From Elusimicrobiota bacterium (GTDB lineage Bacteria > Elusimicrobiota > UBA8919), in the NCBI GenBank assembly GCA_016218625.1, contig JACRDL010000011.1:1-37080 (forward strand): 37,080 nt of DNA, written 5' to 3'. Each line of letters opens with the position of its first letter. Position 1 is the first letter of the stretch. A program made the position numbers and the translations under genes. This document shows, piece by piece, positions 1,655-35,640 of this stretch. The notes under the pieces were generated by a model. It was not told where the DNA came from and ran no database searches. It worked only from the letters and a program-made list of their open reading frames with translations.

Positions 1655-1657
1655 TGT

Positions 1658-1726
1658 GAACCCAGCCCCTCATAAAAAGGGACTGGGCAATAGTTGTTTT
1701 AATGGTAATGACGGAGGGGCTGGGTG
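1658..1726 (+). promoter_or_regulatory. three-strand leader that can hide the ribosome-binding site of the ABC ATPase gene
   Basis: Strand 1 (1661-1671, CCCAGCCCCTC) is perfectly complementary over 11 bases to strand 3 (1714-1724), which holds the Shine-Dalgarno GGAGGGG and the G of the GTG start. Strand 1 can instead pair with strand 2 (1679-1687, GGGACTGGG; 8 pairs with one bulged A). Pairing 1-2 would free the ribosome-binding site and pairing 1-3 would hide it. The same layout precedes the GTG start at 15232. No ligand-binding domain is recognised. The complementarity is seen directly; the switch function is inferred. Confidence 0.6.
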
Positions 1727-2458
1727 AACGCAATTGAGATAAAAAATCTTACAAAAGTTTATATTAAAAAACGGCTTATCAGAAATAAAAAATTTCTTGC
1801 GGTGGATAATTTAAGTTTTGATGTAGCCGAAGGAGAGATTTTCGGTTTTCTGGGACCTAACGGTTCAGGAAAAACTACGACTATAAAAACACTTCTGGGG
1901 CTTCTATATCCTTCGGCGGGCGATTGTTTTATATTGGGAGAAAAAGTCCCGTCACTTTCTGCTTTGTCAAAAATCGGCTATCTTCCGGAGATACCATATC
2001 TTTACGAGTATCTTACGGCAAAAGAGATTCTGTCGCTTTATGGTTCCGTTTCCGGAATCTCCAAAAACATTCTTATCAATCGCATTGATGAAGTTCTTGA
2101 AATCGTCAAATTGAAGACGGAAAAAGATACCCGTCTCGGCGAGTTCTCAAAAGGAATGCTTCAGAGGGTAGGCGTAGCACAGGCGATTATCCATCAACCG
2201 CAACTTTTAATTCTTGATGAGCCGTTTACCGGTCTTGACCCGCTCGGACTAAAAGATATGAGGGACATTATCCTATCTCTTAAAAAAGAGGGTAAAACGG
2301 TGTTTTTCTCCTCGCATATAATTTCCGAGGCGGAAAAAATCTGCAGTCGCGTTGCTATAATTTATAAAGGAAAACTTTTGAGGATAGTTAAAATAAAAGA
2401 AATCAAGCCGAATACGCTTGAAGATATTTTTATATCAGAAATAAATAGTCGCTCGTGA
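1724..2458 (+). CDS. ABC transporter ATP-binding protein
   Basis: This is the nucleotide-binding subunit of an ABC-2-type exporter, 244 residues, acting at the inner face of the cytoplasmic membrane. Walker A is GPNGSGKTT (residues 44-52), the signature region is EFSKGMLQR (about 140-148), and Walker B is LLILDEP (161-167) followed by the D-loop GLDP; the switch histidine is in FFSSHI. The start is GTG 1724, with GGAGGGG just upstream, inside a potential hairpin. Its partner permease begins at 2581. The substrate is unknown. The highly charged loop KKRLIRNKK before the beta strand leading to Walker A is typical of exporter ATPases of the CcmA/NatA kind. Confidence 0.88.
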
Positions 2459-6032: not shown

Positions 6033-6398
6033 ATGAAAATTCTTGTCGTTGATGATGATGCCGAGATAAGAGAATTATTGAAAATTTTTTTAGAGTCCAA
6101 CGGACACACCGTTGTTTTAATTGACAAAGGTGAGCCGGTGATTAAGACGGTTCTCAACGAAACATTCGCGCTGGTTATGCTGGATGTAAATCTGCCGGAT
6201 ATAAACGGTATTGAACTGCTAAAAAAAATTCGTAAGGTTGATGCGGAACTTCCGGTTGTGATGATAACAGGTTTCAAGGATGCCGAAAAAGTTATTACCG
6301 CTTTCCGGGAGGGTGCGGTTGACTGCATATTAAAACCGCTCAATTTTGAATATCTGAAAACAAGCGTACTTAACCGTGCAAGAGGAAAAACGATTTAG
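6033..6398 (+). CDS. stand-alone response regulator receiver domain
   Basis: This 121-residue CheY-like protein has the acidic pocket D7-D8-D9, the phosphorylated aspartate D51 (MLDVNLPD), the conserved threonine in VMITG and the lysine in CILKP. It has no output domain, so it must act by protein contact or as a phosphate shuttle. No histidine kinase is nearby. ATG 6033 is chosen, with GAGGAGCG upstream; the GTG at 6015 would put the ribosome-binding site inside the gene. The TAG stop coincides with the first bases of the following repeat. Confidence 0.85.
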   Translation: MKILVVDDDAEIRELLKIFLESNGHTVVLIDKGEPVIKTVLNETFALVMLDVNLPDINGIELLKKIRKVDAELPVVMITGFKDAEKVITAFREGAVDCILKPLNFEYLKTSVLNRARGKTI

Positions 6399-6512
6399 AC
6401 AGATAAGAAACACGGATGAAAACGGATGGAGTCACGGATTCAGACAGATATAAATCCGTTTGCATCCGAAATAATCCGTCTGAATCTGCGTTTTTATCCG
6501 TTTGAATCGTCT
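6396..6512 (+). repeat. CGGAT-word palindrome, copy 1
   Basis: AGACAGATAAGAAACACGGAT-type words on the left arm are matched by inverted AATCCG...ATCCGTTTGAATC words on the right arm. Close copies fill the gaps at 7195-7289 and 13661-13738. Here the repeat starts at the TAG stop of the receiver gene and runs to about 6512, into the apparent N-terminus of the DUF2344 gene. Confidence 0.8.
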
Positions 6513-7194
6513 TTATAATATCACGAGAGCGATATCCAAGATAAGAGTTAAATATACTAAGGGAAAACCGCTGAGATTTCTAACACATCTTGAAGTAGTG
6601 TCGGCAATTCGTCAGGCGGTTCGGCGTGCTTCTTTGCCGGTGTGCATGTCTTCCGGGTTCAGTCCTCAGCCGAAGGTCTCGTTCGGTCCCCCTCTTGCCG
6701 TCGGATATACTTCAAACTGTGAAATTTTTGATATGGAAATGTTCCGCAGAATTGGAGCAGACGAAGTTGAAAAATCCTTATCTTTAAGTATGCCGTCCGC
6801 CCTCGGTATTATATCTGCGTCGTCTGTTCTGATTATTTCCAAATCTGTTGACTTGATAGTAAATGCGGCAAAGTATTCGGTTGAGATGTCTTTACAAAAT
6901 GAGGTCGCACAGATAAAGATAAAAGATTTTTTTTCAGCGAAAGAATTTTTAATAGAAAGAATTACGGATAAAAGCAGAAGAACTATTGATGTCAGACCGC
7001 TGATGGTTTATATGAAATATGCTGACGGTAAAATTGAAATACTTTTGAGGTTCGGTCCCAAAAAAACCGCCAAACCGGATATAATAATTCAGAAAGTTTT
7101 TAATTTATCCGACGATGAAAAATCCGAGTTAATAATAAACAGGGACCAGTTTTTTTACGAGACGGCAAACGGAGAATTAAGGGAGACAATGTAA
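6502..7194 (+). CDS. DUF2344 (TIGR03936) radical SAM-associated protein
   Basis: About 230 residues. Residues from about 13 on (IRVKYTKGKPLRFLTHLEVV, then AVRRASLPVCMSSGFSPQPKVSFGPPLAVGYTS) match DUF2344, a domain usually encoded next to, or fused with, a B12-binding radical SAM protein and often just upstream of RNase G. RNase G does follow here, but no radical SAM partner is upstream. The start is uncertain: the only standard candidate is TTG 6502, which lies inside the repeat. At the place where the sister repeats end in ATG, this copy reads ATC. The function is not established; a role in RNA modification or processing is suggested only by the context. Confidence 0.72.
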   Translation: MNRLYNITRAISKIRVKYTKGKPLRFLTHLEVVSAIRQAVRRASLPVCMSSGFSPQPKVSFGPPLAVGYTSNCEIFDMEMFRRIGADEVEKSLSLSMPSALGIISASSVLIISKSVDLIVNAAKYSVEMSLQNEVAQIKIKDFFSAKEFLIERITDKSRRTIDVRPLMVYMKYADGKIEILLRFGPKKTAKPDIIIQKVFNLSDDEKSELIINRDQFFYETANGELRETM

Positions 7195-7289
7195 ACAGAT
7201 GAGAAACACGGATAAAAACGGATGGAGTCACGGATTCAGACAGATATAAATCCGTTTGCATCCGAAATAATCTGTTTGAATCGTTGTTA
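7195..7289 (+). repeat. CGGAT-word palindrome, copy 2
   Basis: It begins on the base after the TAA stop of the DUF2344 gene and ends 2 bases before ATG 7292 of the RNase G gene. The sequence is nearly identical to copy 1 and can fold back over most of its length. No Shine-Dalgarno sequence lies between it and the start codon. Confidence 0.82.
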
Positions 7290-7291
7290 AT

Positions 7292-8701
7292 ATGAAAGAA
7301 ATTTTAGCGAATTGTACTGAGGATGAAATAAGGGTTGCTATTGTAGAAGACGGACATCTTACCGATTTTTTTATAGAGCGTCTCGGCGAGGAAAATGTAG
7401 TCGGCAATATCTATAAAAGTAAGGTTGTATCGGTTCTTGACGGTATTCAGGCGGCTTTTGTTAATATCGGCGTTTCTAAAAACGGGTATCTTCCGTTCTC
7501 GGAATTAACCACGGACAAATCCGAATTGAATAAAACAAAGTTTGTGCTTGTGCAGGTAACGAAAGGTCCGATGGGAACAAAGGGCTCAAAACTTACTCAG
7601 CAGATTTCGCTTCCGGGGCATTACCTTGTCTATATTCCGAGTTCTCTCCACATCGGCGTTTCTAAAAATATCACCGACGAGAAAGAACGGTTCCGGCTTA
7701 AATCAATAATTGAGGAAATTAAACCATCAACCGGCGGGTTCATAATAAGAAGCGAAGGTGCGGGAAAAGAAAAAGATGTTTTCAAAAGGGAGATAAAATA
7801 TCTGGCTCGTCTTTGGGAAATAATAAATAAAAAATTTGAGACAGCCGCCGGTGTTGCACTTTTGCACAGGGATTTGGGGCTGGTTTTTAAGACGGTGCGG
7901 GATTATCTCAACGAAGATGTTTCTGCATTTTTTATTGATTCAAAAGACGAACACGAGGACACGCTGAATTTTGTGGAGATGGTTTCGCCGAAGTTCAAAG
8001 AAAAAATTCATCTCTATAAAGGCAAGGTCCCGATTTTTGAAATAAACAATATAGAACAGCAAATCACAAATATACAAAAACAGAAAATCAAATTACCGTC
8101 GGGCGGCTACATAATAATTCAGGAAGCGGAAACGCTCTGCGCTATTGATGTCAACAGCGGAAAATTTACAAAAGCCGGCTCGTTGGATGAAATAATTCTA
8201 AGAACCAATTTAGAGGCGCTTTATGAAATAGCTGCCCAGTTGCGTTTAAGAAATATAGGCGGCATTATCGTTATAGATTTGATCGATATGCACCGCTCTT
8301 CCGACAGAAAAAAAGTGTTCAAACTTCTGCTTGAACTAGTAAGAAAAGACAAAGCAAAAACTGAGGTTCTTCCCGTCACCAAACTCGGGCTTATTGAAAT
8401 GACCCGGCAGCGTAAAACGGAGAGTATGGTTAATTTTCTCTCGGAAACCTGTCCTTACTGCGAGGGTAGCGGGCAAGTATTATCAAGGGAGACGATGGCT
8501 ATAAAAATCAAAAGAGAGATATTAAAACTTGTTACCCGCGGCGGAGAACAGCCGGTCCGCCTGATAGTTCATCCGGATATCGCTGAAGTTTTTGACGAGG
8601 AGTATACAAAAAAAATAGAAAACAAGATAAACAGAAAAATAGTTGTTGAGGCAAACTCGCAAATTCATCGCGAGGATTACAGGATTATATTAGGGAATTA
8701 A
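7292..8701 (+). CDS. rng: ribonuclease G/E family endoribonuclease
   Basis: This 469-residue single-strand-specific endoribonuclease acts in rRNA maturation and mRNA decay. The N-terminal S1-type RNA-binding region begins GNIYKSKVVSVLDGIQAAFVNIG. The catalytic part contains AIDVNSGKF (aspartate near residue 286), RTNLEALYEIAAQLRLRNIG and IVIDLIDM (aspartate near 329), corresponding to the two metal-binding aspartates of RNase E. The zinc-link CPYCEGSGQV follows. The length is that of RNase G, without the long scaffold of RNase E. ATG 7292 directly follows a palindromic spacer without a Shine-Dalgarno sequence. The DUF2344-rng order is a common bacterial pairing. Confidence 0.93.
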   Translation: MKEILANCTEDEIRVAIVEDGHLTDFFIERLGEENVVGNIYKSKVVSVLDGIQAAFVNIGVSKNGYLPFSELTTDKSELNKTKFVLVQVTKGPMGTKGSKLTQQISLPGHYLVYIPSSLHIGVSKNITDEKERFRLKSIIEEIKPSTGGFIIRSEGAGKEKDVFKREIKYLARLWEIINKKFETAAGVALLHRDLGLVFKTVRDYLNEDVSAFFIDSKDEHEDTLNFVEMVSPKFKEKIHLYKGKVPIFEINNIEQQITNIQKQKIKLPSGGYIIIQEAETLCAIDVNSGKFTKAGSLDEIILRTNLEALYEIAAQLRLRNIGGIIVIDLIDMHRSSDRKKVFKLLLELVRKDKAKTEVLPVTKLGLIEMTRQRKTESMVNFLSETCPYCEGSGQVLSRETMAIKIKREILKLVTRGGEQPVRLIVHPDIAEVFDEEYTKKIENKINRKIVVEANSQIHREDYRIILGN

Positions 8702-12868: not shown

Positions 12869-13670
12869 TAAAAAACGCGGAACTGATGCGGAACCCCAAA
12901 GCAATCCCTTCGGGATGCTACGGGGCAGGCGCCACGCGGAACTGGCGTTGAACATAAAAATTTGTGTAGTATTTCTTGCTTCTTGTTTCTTGCTTCTTGC
13001 TTTTTCTAGTTGCAGAACAAAAACTGAAGACAAAACACCGTATGGTACATTTTATACCGACGGTCTACCGTCAAAAAAATGGATTGCTTTGACTTTTGAC
13101 GACGGTCCGAAACCCGAAGTGCTTGACAAAATTTTTGAAACACTCAAAAAGGAAAATGTAAAGGCAACATTTTTTTTAGTCGGTGTAAATGTGAAAACCT
13201 ATCCGCAATATGTAAGCAAATACTTACAATTGGGACACGAAATAGGCAATCATACCTATTCGCACAGGAATTATTATCAGTTGAAAGAAAAAAAGAGTAT
13301 TGAAGATATAGAAAAAATATTGTCACAGGAACTGGACGATTGCGAGTCCGCCATAAAAAATGCCGCCGGCATTAAAACGTTTTTTATGAGAATGCCTAAC
13401 GGATTTAATTCGCCGACGGTAAAAAAAGTAGCAAAAGAAAAAAAATATGTTGTTGTCAACTGGACATTCGGCTGCGATTGGCACGGTTATACGAAAAATG
13501 AACTTGTAAAAAAATATTTAAGAAGTGTTGAACCCGGCGCAATTTTTCTGCTTCACGAAAAAAAGGTTACTGCGGAGGCACTTCCTGAAATAATAAGAGG
13601 GATTAAAAAAAAAGGTTATGAGATAGTAACACTGAGAAAGATTTTGGGAATAGACGATGCAGACAGATAA
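12861..13670 (+). CDS. polysaccharide deacetylase (NodB domain) lipoprotein
   Basis: About 269 residues from ATG 12861, overlapping the permease stop. The NodB domain begins near KKWIALTFDDGPKPEVLDKIF, whose two aspartates are the catalytic and metal-binding pair. The metal-binding HTYSH (in EIGNHTYSH) follows, and the C-terminal motif is PGAIFLLHE. These enzymes remove N-acetyl groups from peptidoglycan or exopolysaccharide outside the cytoplasm. The hydrophobic stretch ICVVFLASCFLLLAFSSC ends in a lipobox-like FSSC, suggesting a lipoprotein. The DNA for the first 55 residues is repeat: a palindrome with CGGAACTG words at about 12876-12950, then CTTGCTTCTTGTTTCTTG-type simple repeats coding the signal segment. 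Confidence 0.85.
   Translation: MFDKKRGTDAEPQSNPFGMLRGRRHAELALNIKICVVFLASCFLLLAFSSCRTKTEDKTPYGTFYTDGLPSKKWIALTFDDGPKPEVLDKIFETLKKENVKATFFLVGVNVKTYPQYVSKYLQLGHEIGNHTYSHRNYYQLKEKKSIEDIEKILSQELDDCESAIKNAAGIKTFFMRMPNGFNSPTVKKVAKEKKYVVVNWTFGCDWHGYTKNELVKKYLRSVEPGAIFLLHEKKVTAEALPEIIRGIKKKGYEIVTLRKILGIDDADR
12872..12950 (+). repeat. palindromic repeat inside the 5' end of the deacetylase gene
   Basis: CGCGGAACTG words occur at both ends of the segment, around the central hairpin AGCAATCCCTTCGGGATGCT. The segment lies between the start codon and the hydrophobic signal segment and is translated. Confidence 0.5.
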
Positions 13671-13738
13671 GAAACACGGATGAAAACAGGTGGAGTCGCG
13701 GATTCAGACAGATATAAATCCGTTTGAATCGTTGTTAT
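13661..13738 (+). repeat. CGGAT-word palindrome, copy 3
   Basis: This copy shares AGACAGATAAGAAACACGGA and the GATTCAGACAGATATAAATC core with copies 1 and 2, and is shorter on the right arm. It begins inside the last codons of the deacetylase gene (GAC AGA TAA) and so supplies the stop codon. It ends 2 bases before the 3' end of the tRNA gene. Confidence 0.8.
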
Positions 13739-13739
13739 A

Positions 13740-13826
13740 TGCCGGAGGAGGGAATTGAACCCACACGACTCCATAAGAGCCGGCAGATTTTGAGTCTGCT
13801 GCGTCTGCCAGTTTCGCCACTCCGGC
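13740..13826 (-). tRNA. tRNA-Leu (anticodon CAA)
   Basis: Read on the minus strand, 87 bases fold as a class II tRNA. The acceptor stem is GCCGGAG/CTCCGGC with discriminator A, the anticodon stem is GCAGA/TCTGC around the loop CTCAAAA (anticodon CAA), there is a long variable arm, and the T-loop is TTCAATT. The T stem has one U-U mismatch. CCA is not encoded. It is the only gene on the minus strand in this part of the window. Confidence 0.93.
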
Positions 13827-15155: not shown

Positions 15156-15161
15156 AAAATG

Positions 15162-15234
15162 AACCCCGCCTCTCCTAATCAGACGAGGGGATTGGGGTAA
15201 TGGAATAGAGTTGATAAAAAGGAGGGGCGGGGTG
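15162..15234 (+). promoter_or_regulatory. three-strand leader that can hide the ribosome-binding site of cstA
   Basis: Strand 1 (15163-15175, ACCCCGCCTCTCC) can pair with strand 3 (15221-15233) over 13 bases including one G-U. Strand 3 holds the AGGAGGGG ribosome-binding site and the first two bases of the GTG start. Strand 1 can instead pair with strand 2 (15185-15197, GAGGGGATTGGGG): six pairs plus a CCCC/GGGG block. This is the same layout as at 1658-1726, and both genes begin GTGAAC. Confidence 0.6.
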
Positions 15235-16869
15235 AACTCTTTAGTTGTCGCGATATGCGGGATTGTTTTACTAATTATAGGTTATAGATTTTACGGTACT
15301 GTAATTGAAAAATTATGGGGAATTGATAGAACGAGAAAAGTGCCATCAGAAACACTTTATGACGGTGTTGATTATGTGCCGGCAAAACACTGGACGATTC
15401 TTTTCGGTCATCATTTTTCCTCAATTGCCGGTGCGGGTCCGATAATAGGTCCTGTCCTTGCCTGCGCATATTTCGGTTGGATGCCGTCACTTTTATGGAT
15501 TGTATTAGGAACTATTTTTATCGGAGGTGTTCATGATTTTTCCTCTTTGATTATTTCTATAAGGAATGAGGGTAAATCAATCGCAGACATTGCACAGTCA
15601 GTGATGGGCAAAAAAACTAAAATAATCTTTTCAATTTTTCTTTTCCTTGCTTTAATTCTGGTAATTGCCGTTTTTACCGCTACCACCGCACAGACGCTTA
15701 TATCAGAGCCCAAAATTGTCGTTCCGACCTTCGGACTTATTTTTGTCGCTGTTCTAATCGGATTTATGATTTATGTATGGAAAAAAAATTATATCCTGTC
15801 AACCGTTATCGGGTTAGTACTGCTTGTTTTACTTTTATTTTCCGGAAATTATTTTCCGATAAATGTCGGCAATATCAAAATTTGGATGATAATACTTTTA
15901 GCATATTCTTTTATTGCATCGGTTTTACCGGTTAATCTTCTTCTGCAACCGCGTGATTATCTTTCAGCGTTCCTGCTTTTTTTTGGGATGGTTTTCGGTT
16001 ATCTTGGTTTGATTTTAACCCATCCGAACATAAACGCGCCTGCATTTACGGGTTTCGGAAGTTCTATCGGAAATCTCTGGCCGATGATGTTTGTTTTTAT
16101 TGCCTGTGGTGCAGTCAGCGGATTTCATGCCTTGATTTCTTCCGGAACAACTTCAAAACAAATCTCAAATGAAATTGACGCAAAAAAAATCGGCTATGGT
16201 GCTATGGTGACGGAAGGGGCGCTCGCTATTCTGGCTTTATTATCGGTAAGTGCGGGGCTTTACTGGACCGGCGGTGAATGTTCCGCACAGTTTATTTATC
16301 CGGAATTGATTAAATCCGGCGATTACATAGGAACATTTGCGCTCGGCTACGGCGAAATCACAAAAATCCTTTTCGGCTCTTCATTTGGAAAACTTATCGC
16401 AATGCTGGTTCTCAATGCATTCGTTATGACTACTCTTGACACTGCCGCAAGAATTACAAGATACATTGCAGCGGAACTTTTCGGCGATGGTTTCAGAATG
16501 AAAATTTTTAAGAACAAGTATTTTTCCACTTTTATCGTGATAATTTTATCGGGACTTTTGGCTTTCGGCGATTGGAAAAAAATCTGGCCTATTTTCGGCG
16601 CCGCCAACCAGTTGATAGCCGCAATAGTTTTGATTGTTATTTCACTACTCCTTTTAACACTCAAAAAACTGACCCGGTATACTTTTTATCCCGCTATTTT
16701 TATGCTTGTCACAACCGTTTCTGCGATTATTTACCAGACGGTTCAGTTTTTTTCAAAAGGAAATTATTTACTGGTGTTTGTCGGAGTTGTCCTTATAATA
16801 CTTACGGTAATAATAGTTATTGAAGCGATAACAGTTTTTAGAAAAAATAAAAATGCGGTTAAAATTTAG
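15232..16869 (+). CDS. cstA: carbon starvation protein CstA family transporter
   Basis: This 545-residue inner-membrane protein has many hydrophobic segments. Family landmarks are the N-terminal RTRKVPSETLYDGVDYVPAKHWTILFGHHFSSIAGAGPIIGPVLA, GGVHDFSSL, LLQPRDYLSAFLL, VSGFHALISSGTTSKQI and VMTTLDTAARITRYIAAEL. CstA proteins import peptides or pyruvate under nutrient limitation; the substrate here is not determined. GTG 15232 is chosen because AGGAGGGG precedes it and upstream codons overlap the leader hairpin. It overlaps the following radical SAM gene by 17 bases. Regulation at the level of translation is suggested by the leader. Confidence 0.93.
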   Translation: MNSLVVAICGIVLLIIGYRFYGTVIEKLWGIDRTRKVPSETLYDGVDYVPAKHWTILFGHHFSSIAGAGPIIGPVLACAYFGWMPSLLWIVLGTIFIGGVHDFSSLIISIRNEGKSIADIAQSVMGKKTKIIFSIFLFLALILVIAVFTATTAQTLISEPKIVVPTFGLIFVAVLIGFMIYVWKKNYILSTVIGLVLLVLLLFSGNYFPINVGNIKIWMIILLAYSFIASVLPVNLLLQPRDYLSAFLLFFGMVFGYLGLILTHPNINAPAFTGFGSSIGNLWPMMFVFIACGAVSGFHALISSGTTSKQISNEIDAKKIGYGAMVTEGALAILALLSVSAGLYWTGGECSAQFIYPELIKSGDYIGTFALGYGEITKILFGSSFGKLIAMLVLNAFVMTTLDTAARITRYIAAELFGDGFRMKIFKNKYFSTFIVIILSGLLAFGDWKKIWPIFGAANQLIAAIVLIVISLLLLTLKKLTRYTFYPAIFMLVTTVSAIIYQTVQFFSKGNYLLVFVGVVLIILTVIIVIEAITVFRKNKNAVKI

Positions 16870-22877: not shown

Positions 22878-23076
22878 AGGTTGCCCCTAAAGGGACTTCC
22901 TTCGGGCGCTCGCAAGCAAATTTCTTTGGTCGCTCATCCGTAAAAGAATAACGGCGGTGATATGTTGATATGCTGATATGTAAAATCGTATTACCGTATC
23001 ACCGTATAAGCATATAAGCAAAAGTAATTTCTTGCTTCGCTCCACGATTAAAGGGATAGATAGATAGATAAAACGA
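22878..23076 (+). repeat. repeat-filled gap upstream of dapB
   Basis: No gene is seen. In order: TTGCCCCTAAAGGGACTTCC (about 22881-22900), whose reverse complement recurs at about 35583-35602; a palindrome of GTGATATGTTGATATG and ATAAGCATATAAGC words; TTGCTTCGCTCCACGATTAA; and an ATAGATAGATAGATA microsatellite. Confidence 0.6.
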
Positions 23077-35523: not shown

Positions 35524-35640
35524 CGAGTGAGCGAGCAGTAGTTGCCAACCTTGGTTGGCTTATTTTCAGCCGAGCGACCGAAGGAAGTCCCTTTAGGGGC
35601 AAGATCGGCAATTACAAACTATTTTCTACTCGCTATAAAT
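35524..35640 (+). repeat. composite repeat gap upstream of the PorV-like gene
   Basis: GTAGT and the hairpin GCCAAC-CTTG-GTTGGC (35544-35559) form half of a double-hairpin element. CGAGCGACCGAAGGAAGTCC followed by CTTTAGGGGCAA is the reverse complement of the repeat at about 22881. GCGAGTGAGCGAGCAG at the left and CTACTCGCT at the right match imperfectly. No gene is seen. Confidence 0.55.

Follow-up and report, generated by a model that had tools for sequence, protein, structure and literature searches.

The window, that is, the whole 37,080-nucleotide stretch of DNA analysed here, contains two leaders of the same three-strand plan, one at the start of an ABC transporter ATPase gene and the other at the start of the gene for the carbon starvation protein CstA. 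Their features, all on the forward strand, are as follows.

1656..1660 (+): left target-site copy with the old start codon, GTGAA (GTG + AA); starts a 23-codon leader ORF
1656..1727 (+): leader ORF of copy 1; its stop TGA (1725-1727) overlaps the new GTG in a -4 arrangement (GTGA)
1661..1724 (+): element core, copy 1 (CCCAGCCCCTC...GAGGGGCTGGG, 64 bases); covariance model R1, 62.4 bits, E 1.3e-11
1661..1671 (+): C-rich strand 1, copy 1 (CCCAGCCCCTC), from sequence and fold
1678..1687 (+): inner G-rich strand 2, copy 1 (AGGGACTGGG), able to pair with strand 1 in place of strand 3
1713..1724 (+): outer G-rich strand 3, copy 1, with GGAGG (1713-1717) and, at 1724, the first base of the new GTG, from sequence and fold
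1724..2458 (+): gene for the ABC transporter ATPase, starting at the new GTG (Pfam ABC_tran, 2.4e-26)
1725..1728 (+): right target-site copy TGAA, copy 1, from sequence and orthologue comparison
15159..15163 (+): left target-site copy ATGAA, which includes the old start codon and opens a leader ORF of 13 codons (MNPASPNQTRGLG; stop TAA at 15198-15200)
15164..15232 (+): element core, copy 2, 69 bases; covariance model, 62.8 bits
15164..15176 (+): C-rich strand 1, copy 2, from sequence and fold
about 15185..15197 (+): inner G-rich strand 2, copy 2 (GAGGGGATTGGGG), from the fold; alone not significant, p 0.155
15220..15232 (+): outer strand 3, copy 2, with the Shine-Dalgarno sequence AGGAGG and the first base of the new GTG, from sequence and fold
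15232..16869 (+): gene for the carbon starvation protein CstA, starting at the new GTG (Pfam CstA, 9.8e-143)
15233..15236 (+): right target-site copy TGAA, copy 2, from the empty site in G001 (same genus)

Both leaders open with a second start codon (GTG at 1656, ATG at 15159) and have TGAA direct repeats on either side, the order being GTGAA, CCCAGCCCCTC...AGGGACTGGG...GGAGGGGCTGGG, TGAA at 1656-1728 and ATGAA, CCCCGCCTCTCCT...GAGGGGATTGGGG...AGGAGGGGCGGGG, TGAA at 15159-15236. The GGAGG of the element lies six bases upstream of the new GTG, and we place the start of the CstA gene at GTG 15232, as against TTG 15211 in the mechanical ORF list. In agreement with an earlier note on this DNA, which had described a three-strand leader over the ATPase start and its recurrence before a second gene, the strands are present at 1661-1724 and the plan is repeated at 15164-15232. 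The C-strand at 1661-1671 is, as had been claimed, an 11-base perfect complement of 1714-1724 (12 bases counting A1660:T1725), a segment that holds most of the GGAGG and the G of the GTG start, and the nearer G-strand at 1678-1687 also complements the C-strand, with one mismatch. Exact matches to GGAGGGGCNGGGTGAAC in the window were confined to the two outer strands (chance expectation 0.06 at up to three mismatches). Directly upstream of copy 1, a weak HNH endonuclease match (219-653) adjoins an N6/N4 DNA methylase (644-1654); these two genes are possibly part of a restriction-modification system.

Both folds beat 200 of 200 dinucleotide shuffles (z = -4.9 at site 1 and -3.1 at site 2). The alternative pairings had been likened to a translational switch, and the computed energies of the two forms go against this, with the closed form favoured by 13-15 kcal/mol: -37.0 versus -22.0 kcal/mol for the closed and open folds at site 1 and -35.0 versus -21.4 kcal/mol at site 2, so that opening strand 3 is calculated to cost 15.0 and 13.6 kcal/mol, respectively. 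In equilibrium folding the unpaired probability of strand 3 was near 0 throughout, strand 1 burying the Shine-Dalgarno sequence and the start, and the closed form was predicted to be stable to 60-70 C, with no melting at physiological temperature. Such a distance between the folds argues against both a balanced thermodynamic switch and a thermometer. As equilibrium favours the closed form, opening would require either that the RNA fold while it is being transcribed or that a ribosome translate the leader ORF. As long as strand 3 has yet to be transcribed, strands 1 and 2 are predicted to form a hairpin by themselves, and occupation of strand 1 is predicted to leave much of the Shine-Dalgarno region single-stranded.

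Comparison with relatives brought out what the flanking repeats are. At cstA, the empty site of G001, which belongs to the same genus and has the same upstream sequence, reads ...aaaaATGAATTCG, the flanks found in the window being joined there at one ATGAA; this site was read directly from the sequences, MAFFT gap placement being poor at this point. CstA of G005, G006 and G008 also has a plain ATGAA start without the element. The four element-free ABC ATPase orthologues start with ATGAA or ATGAG, those of G005, G006 and G007 beginning ATGAATGC and that of G003 beginning ATGAGTGC, and the N terminus read from the new GTG aligns exactly with the ATG start of the orthologues. At the argC/argJ junction, a single insertion inside the ATGA overlap left argC with its stop and argJ with a start. 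Read at the level of sequence, these comparisons show that the target is A^TGNN, inside the start codon, and that the four bases TGNN are duplicated. Where the right end GGAGGGGCGGGG meets the duplicated TGAA, a new GTG arises exactly at the position of the native start, and a Shine-Dalgarno sequence stands at a suitable distance before it; the left copy retains the old ATG or GTG plus any overlapping upstream stop. Because the start codon is rebuilt at its old position the host gene survives, and a gene carrying the insertion is left intact and is probably still translatable.

Within its own genome, the element also lies upstream of the ArgJ (L003) and PurD (L013) genes, identified in Pfam runs, and each of these proteins begins at a GTG formed by the last G of the element and TGAA. 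A covariance model (R1) built from 32 copies, in which the outer helix comprises 13 pairs (terminal inverted repeats), gave, with E no higher than 1, 14 matches in this genome and 39 in G004, some of the palindromes being matched on both strands. The element measures about 35-110 bases; its C-rich left end and G-rich right end form a terminal palindrome of about 11-14 pairs, and its interior varies freely, with no aptamer-like conserved core. The TGAA-flanked repeat stands before unrelated genes (ABC ATPase, CstA, ArgJ, PurD, AroK and many more), and in the window's family and in Omnitrophota the element precedes dozens of them. In G004, G005 and other relatives, the element-led genes include what we take, from their N termini, to be a shikimate kinase, a FAD-type oxidase and a response regulator, together with presumed TsaD-, FolE-, PyrB-, LpxB-, PlsX- and IspH-like genes. 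In one genome (G348), start-codon copies at different genes are near-identical including the interior (L216/L228, L281/L283 and L284/L288), which suggests recent spread of the complete unit. In another (G342), the start-codon copies at panC-like and glycosyltransferase-like genes (L327, on the reverse strand, and L329) each hold a nested repeat of about 150 bases, in opposite orientations, and the GTG start and downstream frame look intact.

Both window leaders are thus copies of one mobile palindromic repeat; neither is a riboswitch or RNA thermometer specific to its gene. An inherited RNA of the riboswitch, attenuator or thermometer type, through which a signal would toggle ABC ATPase translation in cis between two folds, would account for the mutually exclusive pairings with the start region and for the fit of strand 2 to its own C-strand, and the G004 ABC ATPase, which has the element at the same place and is the single orthologous filled site found, keeps the strands. 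We nevertheless consider this reading very improbable, since the structure is missing from four orthologues (G003, G005, G006 and G007), the same element with its target duplications precedes dozens of functionally unrelated genes, the interior lacks a conserved core and the folds are far from balanced; in Rfam, moreover, there was no match near any gathering score. On the orthologues without the structure, the fold energies and Rfam, we rejected an ancestral regulator of this kind. What stands of the switch proposal is that the alternative pairings are real, recur in many copies and are retained in G004; the assignment to a riboswitch, attenuator or thermometer of the ATPase gene did not find support.

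To survey the insertions without regard to their flanks, we searched eight Omnitrophota genomes with a pattern that fixed the element ends only. This yielded 84 distinct copies, 68 of them with identical 4-bp flanks (TGAA 39, TAAA 11, TGAG 5, TGCG 1, and others). Of the 47 copies flanked by TGNN, 40 stand after an A and have, from the new GTG onwards, an open frame of 50 codons or more, compared with 7.7% of 1331 TGAA/TGAG/TGCG sites in the same DNA. The TGAG and TGCG duplications occur at ATGAG and ATGCG starts, which indicates that the sites share the start codon rather than the letters TGAA. A second class, mostly 46-50 or 62-64 bases long, has TAAA-type duplications away from starts, and several such copies are also present in the window's own genome. 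That start codons are hit may reflect either the choice of target or selection against harmful insertions elsewhere, but TGNN copies are rare in other non-coding sites, which speaks for a degree of targeting.

A backward control pattern gave no matches in the eight Omnitrophota genomes. The idea that a GC-rich patch is self-complementary by chance, for which the small strand size speaks and nothing else, was rejected on this control, on the shuffle tests and on the recurrence with target duplications, and we give it virtually no credence.

A scan of GTDB representatives for TGAACCCCGC...GCGGGGTGAA returned at least 118 stretches. Among the matches listed, 43 of 80 records were titled Omnitrophota or Omnitrophica, others including Nitrospirota-type records, and at loci below 50% GC an A or G preceded 83/85 copies and a frame of at least 100 codons was opened by 65/85. 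The eight genomes reached via mostly Omnitrophota records had about 7 to 24 sites each, and in the 341 members of the window's phylum that were searched no genome had more than three such sites; on this contrast, the phylum of the window is probably not Omnitrophota. The matches in high-GC genomes (Tabrizicola, Rhodobacter) are of another kind, namely GCGGGGTGAACCCCGC repeated in tandem; L064, L068, L077, L083, L099, L103, L128, L133 and similar loci are high-GC Rhodobacter/Tabrizicola tandem arrays built on GCGGGGTGAACCCCGCCCTAC, which have letters in common with the element and an unrelated layout. We also discarded a phage-borne element: none of six viral-contig matches stood before a gene start, and four were one repeated sequence of 60-61% GC.

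We regard it as highly probable that the structure is a small non-autonomous mobile element that inserts between the A and the TG of start codons, duplicates TGNN and installs a new GTG, and we infer two escapes from its own block. The element would be moved by a transposase acting on its palindromic ends, and once inserted the palindrome would also hide the new Shine-Dalgarno sequence. In the first escape, the inner G-strand, being transcribed first, would capture the C-strand; in the second, ribosomes starting at the old start codon would translate the leader ORF and strip off the C-strand. Where the leader stop overlaps the new start, ribosomes might reinitiate on GTGA, a MIRU-like coupling. 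In the examined loci we looked between paired tips as much as 4 kb apart and at unpaired tips; this turned up nested small repeats but neither a transposase nor a complete parent element.

Several observations bear on the first escape. Strand 2 of site 1 differs from shuffled interiors (p about 0.005), and strand 2 was better than chance in 50/107 pooled copies, being significant in 23/44 start-codon copies versus 10/80 readings of other copies. Its pairing with its own C-strand scored 18.9 on average versus 17.4 for permuted partners (sd 0.21, 0/2000), a statistic inflated by the relatedness of copies within subfamilies; for own-family copies alone, the preference was matched by 13/2000 permutations. 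Strand 2 was also more often present when the leader stop lies within the element (32/54 versus 18/53, p 0.012). A competing account accepts the mobile start-codon element and holds that strand 2 has no RNA function and is an internal remnant, such as a degenerate older right end, expression depending solely on leader translation or on opening of the Shine-Dalgarno strand by the ribosome. In several copies (L013, L155, L158), strand 2 is followed by TGAATA-like letters, as after the true right end, about half of the copies are without a significant strand 2, and the leader frame bias described below points to coupling. The enrichment in start-codon copies, the association with early leader stops and the fit to the own C-strand argue against it, and we see in this account a serious possibility that falls short of being probable. 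An extension of the mobile-element reading, in which a palindrome family aimed at start codons evolved its internal third strand to undo its own block of the ribosome site, and so became a transposable translation-initiation module for any gene with a possibly tunable output, is one we put forward tentatively and think rather unlikely.

As for the second escape, the core length leaves a remainder of 1 on division by 3 in 51 of 88 distinct genes (p 6e-6), the frame that puts the leader TGA over the new GTG, and leaders are open to the overlapping TGA in 28 of the 88 genes, compared with 13 expected and a maximum of 22 for shuffled interiors. Site 1 has the overlapping leader stop and site 2 does not. 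No such frame bias is seen when 20 more copies from the window's own family are counted (8/7/5), and the old start codon is gone from six own-family copies, so the leader ORF is dispensable in some places. Together, these results make leader coupling likely in Omnitrophota copies, yet not universal. The element might alternatively be read as coding, translation from the old start codon adding an N-terminal extension to the host protein. This would suit the 15/107 pooled copies that are in frame without a stop, but a stop or frame shift precedes the gene in both window copies, for which the sequence refutes such an extension, and in most others; we find this reading scarcely credible.

The closest known system is that of the mycobacterial MIRUs, which are mobile, lie at start codons and have a coupled internal ORF (PMC12548453). 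In both cases, short mobile repeats insert at the start codons of many genes, and the -4 overlap of the internal ORF stop with the downstream start is also seen at site 1 here. Going by descriptions, from which the likeness is drawn, the element described here stands apart by the strong palindrome formed by its C/G-rich ends, its 4-bp TGNN duplication, a start rebuilt as GTG with the element's own Shine-Dalgarno sequence, the inner alternative strand that it often carries, and its hosts, which are uncultivated phyla. MIRUs, in the original description by Supply et al. in 1997, reportedly have no dyad symmetry.

Bacterial MITE-like repeats (RUP, Correia, YPAL/RU-2, BOX) are shorter than 200 bp, have inverted terminal repeats and target duplications and encode no protein; they are mostly A+T-rich, many have TA targets, and they are intergenic or intragenic (PMC2229807, PMC3049150). 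The present element resembles them in its small size, terminal inverted repeats and target-site duplication, and we saw no start-codon targeting described for them in these two sources. The REP palindromes, GTAG- and CGTC-tagged, are small repeated bacterial palindromes (PMC3733652); the present element has 4-bp flanking duplications and forms a translation start, and by inspection its ends are not GTAG/CGTC tags. With translational riboswitches, attenuators and RNA thermometers it shares two competing helices over the ribosome-binding site, and it differs from them in having no conserved sensor domain, no single gene or pathway and folds far from balance. We found no published description of the element in the openly searchable literature, subscription papers being outside that scope.

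The element would be a second case, far from mycobacteria, of mobile DNA landing exactly in start codons without destroying the gene. Genes such as murG, dxr, purD and tsaD are usually regarded as essential, and the insertion spares even these. It would also account for a large number of GTG starts and seeming leader peptides, both in Omnitrophota and in the window's family, where mechanical start annotation can be expected to err often (old ATG or upstream TTG), and it offers a natural set of more than 100 matched before/after translation starts for the study of hairpin-buried ribosome sites.

The window holds other repeats as well. A 108-nt repeat is present in three copies (6390-6497, 7186-7293 and 13654-13761; 70-89% alike), the third of which overlaps a tRNA-Leu gene at 13740-13826 (-). 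Two more dispersed families (12052-12131/24485-24559 and 22139-22250/31344-31439) are about 89-97% alike, one of them rich in CACTCGCTCGCT. Finally, a 41-nt repeat with GCCCCTAAAGGGACTTCCTTCGG forms an inverted pair (22881-22921 and 35562-35602), and a stretch very similar to it (CCCCTAAAGGGACTTCCTTATGG) lies inside a probable decayed copy of the element before mnmE (L006), so that this second repeat family seems to be nested in the first.
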